Assembly (NCBI GenBank): GCA_027491115.1
Contig: JAIXWV010000010.1
Location: forward strand, 1 to 39,230
Direction of reading: 5' to 3'
From: Pseudomonadota bacterium
GTDB lineage: Bacteria > Bdellovibrionota > UBA1018 > CAIMNF01
DNA: 39,230 nucleotides
Positions 5,403-6,081 of this stretch are shown here, one piece after another (the first letter of the stretch is position 1; the number at the start of each line of letters is the position of its first letter). The notes beneath the pieces were generated by a model that was given only the letters and a program-made list of their open reading frames with translations, was not told the DNA's origin and did no database searches. Both the position numbers and the translations under genes were made by a program.

Positions 5403-5432
5403 AGTATACAGACTGACTAGTCGGTCTGTAAA
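5403..5432 (-). promoter_or_regulatory. tetR operon promoter with embedded TetR operator
   Basis: On the minus strand TTTACA (5427-5432) and TATACT (5403-5408) are 18 bases apart. The spacer and flanks form a 24-bp palindrome (5407-5430) centred on GACTAGTC, with one mismatched pair. This layout suits a TetR dimer that blocks RNA polymerase directly. The -10 hexamer ends 6 bases before the ATG at 5396, so the transcript would be leaderless or nearly so. Confidence 0.75.
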
Positions 5433-5511
5433 GGGCCTTGAATCGTGCCATTCGGAAGGGAAGGGTGTCCGACTGGCCACCGCGCAAGCCAAACCCATGC
5501 TAGGATGTCGT

Positions 5512-5634
5512 ATGAGCCAAATTTGTTTCTTCTGTAAGCGCGCCCCTTCCGACCATCAGTGTGAAACCTGCAAGAGATGGGTCTGTCTGCAGTGTTCAGG
5601 TCCCCACAACCACAATTGCTATCCACGCGATTGA
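5512..5634 (+). CDS. 40-residue AN1-like zinc-finger microprotein
   Basis: A complete small gene: AGGA at 5502-5505, six bases, ATG, 40 codons, TGA. The ligand pattern is C5-x2-C8-x8-C17-x2-C20-x4-C25-x2-C28-x5-H34-x-C36, with an extra H32. That is nearly the AN1-type zinc-finger pattern (C-x2-C-x9-12-C-x1-2-C-x4-C-x2-H-x5-H-x-C), with a cysteine replacing the first histidine and a linker one residue shorter. It should therefore bind two zinc ions in a compact fold. AN1 fingers in eukaryotes and some bacteria bind proteins or occur in fusions. Here the finger makes up the whole protein. It is divergent from tetR (115 bases apart) and ends 3 bases from the convergent SRPBCC gene. The partner and function are unknown. 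Confidence 0.78.
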   Translation: MSQICFFCKRAPSDHQCETCKRWVCLQCSGPHNHNCYPRD

Positions 5635-5637
5635 ATT

Positions 5638-6081
5638 TCAATGGCCTCCGAACACCCTTCGATAAACAGATGCTCTCCCTGCAAACGAGAGCCAGAGGGG
5701 TCCAAAGAGGACGAGGTCCAGAATCCGGTTTCCGCTGGAGTAAGTGATGTCGTCGGTGATTTCTGAACCTCCGGAAGGCTTGGATCTGACACCGTGATGG
5801 TGTCGCCACTTCTTCAGGGGGAAGGGGAGTGGTCCTCCTTCATCAACAAAGCTCCAAGAGTCTTGGGCGAACTGGTGAAAAGTGATTCGACTGACCCAAG
5901 TCTGAAGGAGTCCCGGAAGCCCCACGCGAAGGTGGATTTCATGCCCGACTTCGCAGCCATCGAAGCGGTCAAGGGCCAGTTGAATCAGGGGTGGTTTGAG
6001 CTGAAGAAACAGGTTGCGGTCGAACCCCTGTTTCACCTGTTCGAGGGACGATGAGACTTCGGTTTTGAATTTCAGATTCAT
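5638..6081 (-). CDS. SRPBCC-family ligand-binding-like protein
   Basis: A 147-residue cytoplasmic protein resembling the SRPBCC (Bet v 1/START-like) proteins grouped as COG4276. Seen: an alternating beta pattern, SWSFVDEGGPLPFPLKKWRHHH near residues 76-96, and a C-terminal amphipathic helix, all typical of the helix-grip fold. These proteins hold hydrophobic ligands and the exact ligand here is unknown. The ATG at 6081 has no Shine-Dalgarno sequence but is preceded by a promoter-like pair, so the message is probably nearly leaderless. The gene lies behind the chemoreceptor gene, separated from it by a stem-loop, and is convergent with the zinc-finger gene. Confidence 0.7.
   Translation of the reverse strand: MNLKFKTEVSSSLEQVKQGFDRNLFLQLKPPLIQLALDRFDGCEVGHEIHLRVGLPGLLQTWVSRITFHQFAQDSWSFVDEGGPLPFPLKKWRHHHGVRSKPSGGSEITDDITYSSGNRILDLVLFGPLWLSFAGRASVYRRVFGGH

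Follow-up and report, generated by a model that had tools for sequence, protein, structure and literature searches.

The gene at positions 5512–5634 (forward strand, stop codon included) of the window, that is, of the whole 39,230-nucleotide stretch of DNA analysed here, encodes a 40-residue protein, MSQICFFCKRAPSDHQCETCKRWVCLQCSGPHNHNCYPRD, that is predicted to be a minimal two-zinc cross-brace finger of the RING-related kind (B-box/AN1/zf-HIT-like) with nothing else in the protein, and its family is confined, within the genomes scanned, to one uncultured order of Bdellovibrio-like bacteria. The putative ligands, a CCCCCCHC set, lie in four pairs, C5 and C8 (5524–5535), C17 and C20 (5560–5571), C25 and C28 (5584–5595), and H34 and C36 (5611–5619), all on the forward strand. 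Their spacing, C-x2-C-x8-C-x2-C-x4-C-x2-C-x5-H-x-C, bears out the AN1-like arrangement of the preliminary description, with the first linker shortened to x8 and one His exchanged for Cys, C28 standing in the place of the first His of AN1. A Shine–Dalgarno-like AGGA (5502–5505, forward strand) lies 6 nt before the ATG, and similar motifs precede around 16 of 25 homologous starts, a count that is approximate because the start offset was slightly off at a few loci, compared with 11% of random stretches. There is a second in-frame ATG at 5497; the homologues start within 0–2 residues of the equivalent of 5512. The translation, the AGGA and the homologues thus confirm that this is a free-standing bacterial zinc finger of 40 residues with a ribosome site and a stop, and the remark that a bacterial finger of such a size is easily missed was, we judge, right.

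Homologues with E < 1e-7 were found in about 30 of 58 related genomes in a search of relatives, and, when 369 genomes of the phylum were searched with a profile, 31 proved to be carriers, the source included, all of them metagenome assemblies and all belonging to one Bdellovibrionales/Oligoflexia order; the sole match outside this order among the 369 was weak (G240, E 3e-4) and lay in a 173-aa open frame. From 84,980 species representatives we recovered 24 loci, mostly in Bdellovibrionales, Oligoflexia or Bacteriovoracaceae metagenome-assembled genomes, using one strict peptide pattern, so that remote relatives may exist elsewhere. The search of phages gave only a partial, weak match and no full homologue, the viral contigs searched gave no homologue, and a candidate plasmid homologue was rejected because the sole match lay out of frame within a dehydrogenase-like gene.

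The preliminary description had staked the finger on its Cys and His residues, and all eight are invariant in 30 aligned members of the family, as are three non-ligand residues, R22 (5575–5577), Y37 (5620–5622) and R39 (5626–5628), while F7, K21, V24 and N35 are nearly invariant. The spacer before the His is x3 in 19 of the 30 members and x5 in 11. Most members have 37–41 residues, several end in a tail that reaches about 20 residues, or about 34 in one case, and in one member (L014/L040) the reading frame stays open into a long ORF downstream. Same-genus copies differ mostly at codon position 3 (for example, 5, 1 and 21 differences at positions 1, 2 and 3, respectively) and have pN/pS values of 0.06–0.28, with third codon positions near saturation; the gene is under purifying selection. 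It is present in a single copy in the source genome (2.55 Mb, 98.7% complete), and looks accessory because it was not found in three of the 12 genomes of the genus, two of which are more than 90% complete.

Clustering of the flanking ORFs gave no fixed operon partner; the neighbours vary from genome to genome, and within the genus the flanks also differ, except in one pair (G002 and G011). At the top of the unsupervised clustering of all flanking ORFs were DEAD-box helicases and ABC ATPases (seven loci each). PAS proteins and an FtsJ-type rRNA methyltransferase came next (four loci each), and then three families with three loci, which include an RF-1-domain protein and an S4-like protein, the latter named from its appearance and having no Pfam match. 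Neighbours confirmed with Pfam were SUI1, ABC-F (ABC_tran_Xtn, at L052), DEAD (one with a DbpA domain), RF-1, FtsJ (RlmM-like, at L051) and ribosomal protein bL31 (at L042).

Four neighbour families were located in all 31 carriers, and their distances were compared with random placement, in genomes that share ancestry and on contigs of which some are short. A DEAD-box helicase lies within 2.5 kb of the finger gene in six genera, compared with 0.25 expected (Poisson 3e-7), an ArfB-type release factor within 2.5 kb in four genera, compared with 0.042 expected (Poisson 1e-7), and SUI1/YciH within 0.3 kb in three genomes of two genera, compared with 0.012 expected within 0.5 kb; the families had been picked from the same loci before testing, so these values need correction for about 3000 gene families, after which ArfB and DEAD remain below 0.01 and the other families alone do not survive. 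SDR dehydrogenases, a control of similar copy number, occurred once within 10 kb (in G006) among the matches listed, compared with about one expected. In three genomes from three families (G016, G025 and G023), a gap of 15–29 nt separates the finger gene from a co-directional DEAD-box helicase gene downstream; the three helicases differ (35–42% identity to that of G023). The chromosomal association of the finger gene with RNA helicase and translation-factor genes is therefore non-random. Some neighbour families also associate with one another: SUI1/YciH and ArfB-type genes lie next to each other in three genera, as a divergent pair 42–72 nt apart (G023:C440, G028:C23, G040:C159 and G032:C130), an arrangement that recurs in this order. 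In G010 (C13:119577–119732), the finger gene is followed after 26 nt, near bL31, by a match to SUI1/YciH of only 52 residues; this SUI1 gene is possibly truncated or frame-shifted.

These recurrent helicase and translation-factor neighbours suggest a small, unrecognised helper of the protein-making machinery, and it is from the gene neighbours alone that we infer such a role. Tentatively, then, we favour a minimal two-zinc cross-brace finger whose binding partner would belong to the translation or RNA machinery. Two Zn2+ ions would be held cross-brace, by C5/C8/C25/C28 and by C17/C20/H34/C36, and the zinc-stabilised fold would hold a surface of R22, Y37 and R39, which may bind the ribosome, rRNA or a DEAD-box helicase. 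The role, perhaps in ribosome assembly, stress or rescue, would be accessory and non-essential, because near-complete genomes of the same genus do without the gene. The invariant residues, the purifying selection, the similarity of 26 of the 30 members to the B-box, the fold model and the neighbours all back this explanation. Counting against it are a pTM of only 0.53 for the model, for which Foldseek gave no match at E ≤ 0.001, and a net charge of about +2 for the 40-residue protein, which is not typical of a strong RNA binder; against the translation role in particular, the neighbours in the window itself are a divergent TetR regulator and an ORF without assignment, not translation genes.

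Cross-brace fingers are mostly protein-binding modules, and the protein could instead be a protein–protein adaptor or regulator outside translation, such as a finger for DNA binding or signalling, with neighbours that reflect gene-dense housekeeping regions. The variable flanks, with no fixed partner, would suit such a role, as would the presence of a DNA-binding piggyBac cross-brace (5lme) among the weak structural matches, but no neighbour excess was seen for the control family, which is similarly abundant, and the same translation genes recur near the finger gene in differing orientations and families, and we regard this alternative as rather unlikely.

The preliminary description had named the protein for AN1, and in Pfam searches part of this held, in that weak similarity to both AN1 and the B-box was found; no model, however, reached its cut-off, and the B-box scored above AN1. 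For the window protein, the scores were 11.2 bits (E 0.43) against a cut-off of 27.9 for zf-AN1 (PF01428), 17.7 bits (E 4e-3) against 24.1 for zf-B_box (PF00643) and 21.6 bits (E 1.8e-4) against 27 for zf-B_box_Trim66 (PF25287). Across the family, zf-B_box matched 26 of 30 members, zf-B_box_Trim66 25 and zf-AN1 three, and none of 40 relatives exceeded the curated cut-off of the B-box models. The AN1 model does work on genomes of this order, because a bona fide AN1 domain there (L095, G028:C15:56765–56878) scores 43 bits, over the cut-off; that domain stands at the C-terminus of an apparently exported bacterial protein of about 300 residues. A minimal bacterial AN1 domain, working by protein binding as AN1 fingers do in eukaryotic host proteins, would account for the ligand spacing and H-x-C end of the window protein and for its top structural match, the AN1 domain 1x4v (Z 4.0 over all 40 residues). 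Besides the low scores, it has against it that AN1 has the ligand order CCCCCHHC with a C-x2-H-x5-H-x-C end, whereas CCCCCCHC is invariant in the 30 members, the sixth ligand always being Cys, and that x5 is the minority spacer. This explanation is improbable, and we do not accept membership of AN1.

In sequence, the finger appears nearest to the B-box, which it resembles in size, in the C-x2-C...C-x2-C-x4-C-x2-C core, in its best profile scores and in the two-zinc RING-like fold expected of it. It differs in scoring below the curated cut-offs, in standing alone, whereas B-boxes occur in TRIM or plant multidomain proteins, and in its ligands: the usual B-box set is CC/HCCCCHH and the ZZ set CCCCCCHH, and CCCCCCHC is neither (PMC4506424). 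Searches of NCBIfam and PHROGs gave no convincing match, and, judged from these comparisons, the family belongs to no Pfam, NCBIfam or PHROG family. In the open-access literature, we found no paper on stand-alone bacterial B-box or AN1 proteins this small.

The AlphaFold2 model made with the family alignment, for which sequences were read from the fetched loci and the GTG start of L021 was written as M, has a pLDDT of 82 and contains no metal; the single sequence alone gave a poor prediction (pLDDT 57). As the preliminary description would lead one to expect, an AN1 domain ranks first among the structural neighbours of the model, but the ranking is weak and effectively tied, with Z values of 4.0 for AN1, 3.7 for the zf-HIT finger of yeast Hit1 (3.1 for a further zf-HIT match) and 3.3 for the plant B-boxes of CONSTANS/COL2 (TMq 0.58–0.60). 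The Foldseek match to AN1 had an E value of 0.67, and a sequence search of solved structures gave nothing below E 0.4. Because of the profile scores and these structural neighbours, we place the finger in the RING-like cross-brace group and not in AN1; its eight invariant ligands in four pairs fit the RING-like binuclear treble clef, or cross-brace, superfamily, and we consider this kind of fold likely. The zf-HIT fingers have the same ligand order, CCCCCCHC, although their third and fourth ligand pairs are spaced otherwise. For the window protein, no zf-HIT profile came up at E ≤ 10, in a search in which HMMER filtering removes weak hits. Hit1 and Bcd1, two proteins of the zf-HIT type, are described as assembly factors of box C/D snoRNPs (PMC7994586 and PMC9418376). 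A connection of the finger with ribosome production would be in line with its gene neighbours, and the zf-HIT proteins are a possible functional parallel by analogy; we do not claim homology.

Being Cys-rich, short and accessory, the protein might also be a small, metallothionein-like protein that stores or buffers metal. Such a protein would hardly be expected to have exactly eight invariant ligands ordered as in a structural two-zinc finger, to keep R22, Y37 and R39 invariant and F7, K21, V24 and N35 nearly so, and to have no further thiols save an occasional eighth Cys, and we think this explanation very improbable.

In the window, the gene lies between the TetR gene (minus strand, probable start 5396), which precedes TolC/RND efflux genes, and a convergent 147-aa ORF. 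Just upstream of the probable TetR start, at 5408–5429, is a near-perfect 22-bp palindrome, ACAGACTGACTAGTCGGTCTGT, which from its sequence is likely to be the TetR operator. The start of the finger gene and the probable one of TetR are 115 nt apart, and this operator-like sequence lies between them, as might be the case if the finger gene were an accessory gene under the divergent TetR and part of the efflux locus; but that TetR was found in no other genome of the genus and the flanks of the finger gene differ almost everywhere, and we dropped this link as highly improbable. The 147-aa ORF (5638–6081, minus strand), for which Pfam gave no match, is probably a genuine gene that annotation has missed, because a stretch in G002 matches its DNA at 72% identity and shorter stretches match in G001 and G011.

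Although the gene is only 40 codons long, a spurious ORF is scarcely credible given the conserved homologues, the codon-position pattern and the relaxed eight-ligand pattern, which matches once in the six-frame translation of the window and never in 3 Mb of random DNA generated by a Markov-1 model to match its dinucleotide composition.

A second family of finger proteins, of 160–175 residues, occurs in the same order (L080, L081, L083, L085, L086, L093, L094, L037 and L033). Its members resemble the finger described here in having an N-terminal C-x2-C-x8-C-x2-C-x4-C-x2-C finger, most having been found with the same B-box model, and in lying near ArfB in G010 (about 60 nt away) and near a DEAD helicase in G005 (about 0.5 kb away). 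They are longer, with a conserved C-terminal domain and the last ligand pair far downstream, and form a separate family.

The family is absent from the annotation libraries Pfam, NCBIfam and PHROGs, so zinc fingers of this kind, of 37–56 residues, go unnamed. A more specific proposal, which we put forward as doubtful, is that these undescribed proteins, each consisting of a finger alone, serve the ribosome or DEAD-box RNA helicases as dedicated cofactors that depend on zinc, a functional counterpart of the zf-HIT assembly factors of eukaryotes, and are confined to one Bdellovibrio-related order. If the link to translation is true, this lineage would have its own ribosome or helicase factor, made from one RING-like finger of a type known chiefly from eukaryotes, and the protein would lend itself well to a simple biochemical test.
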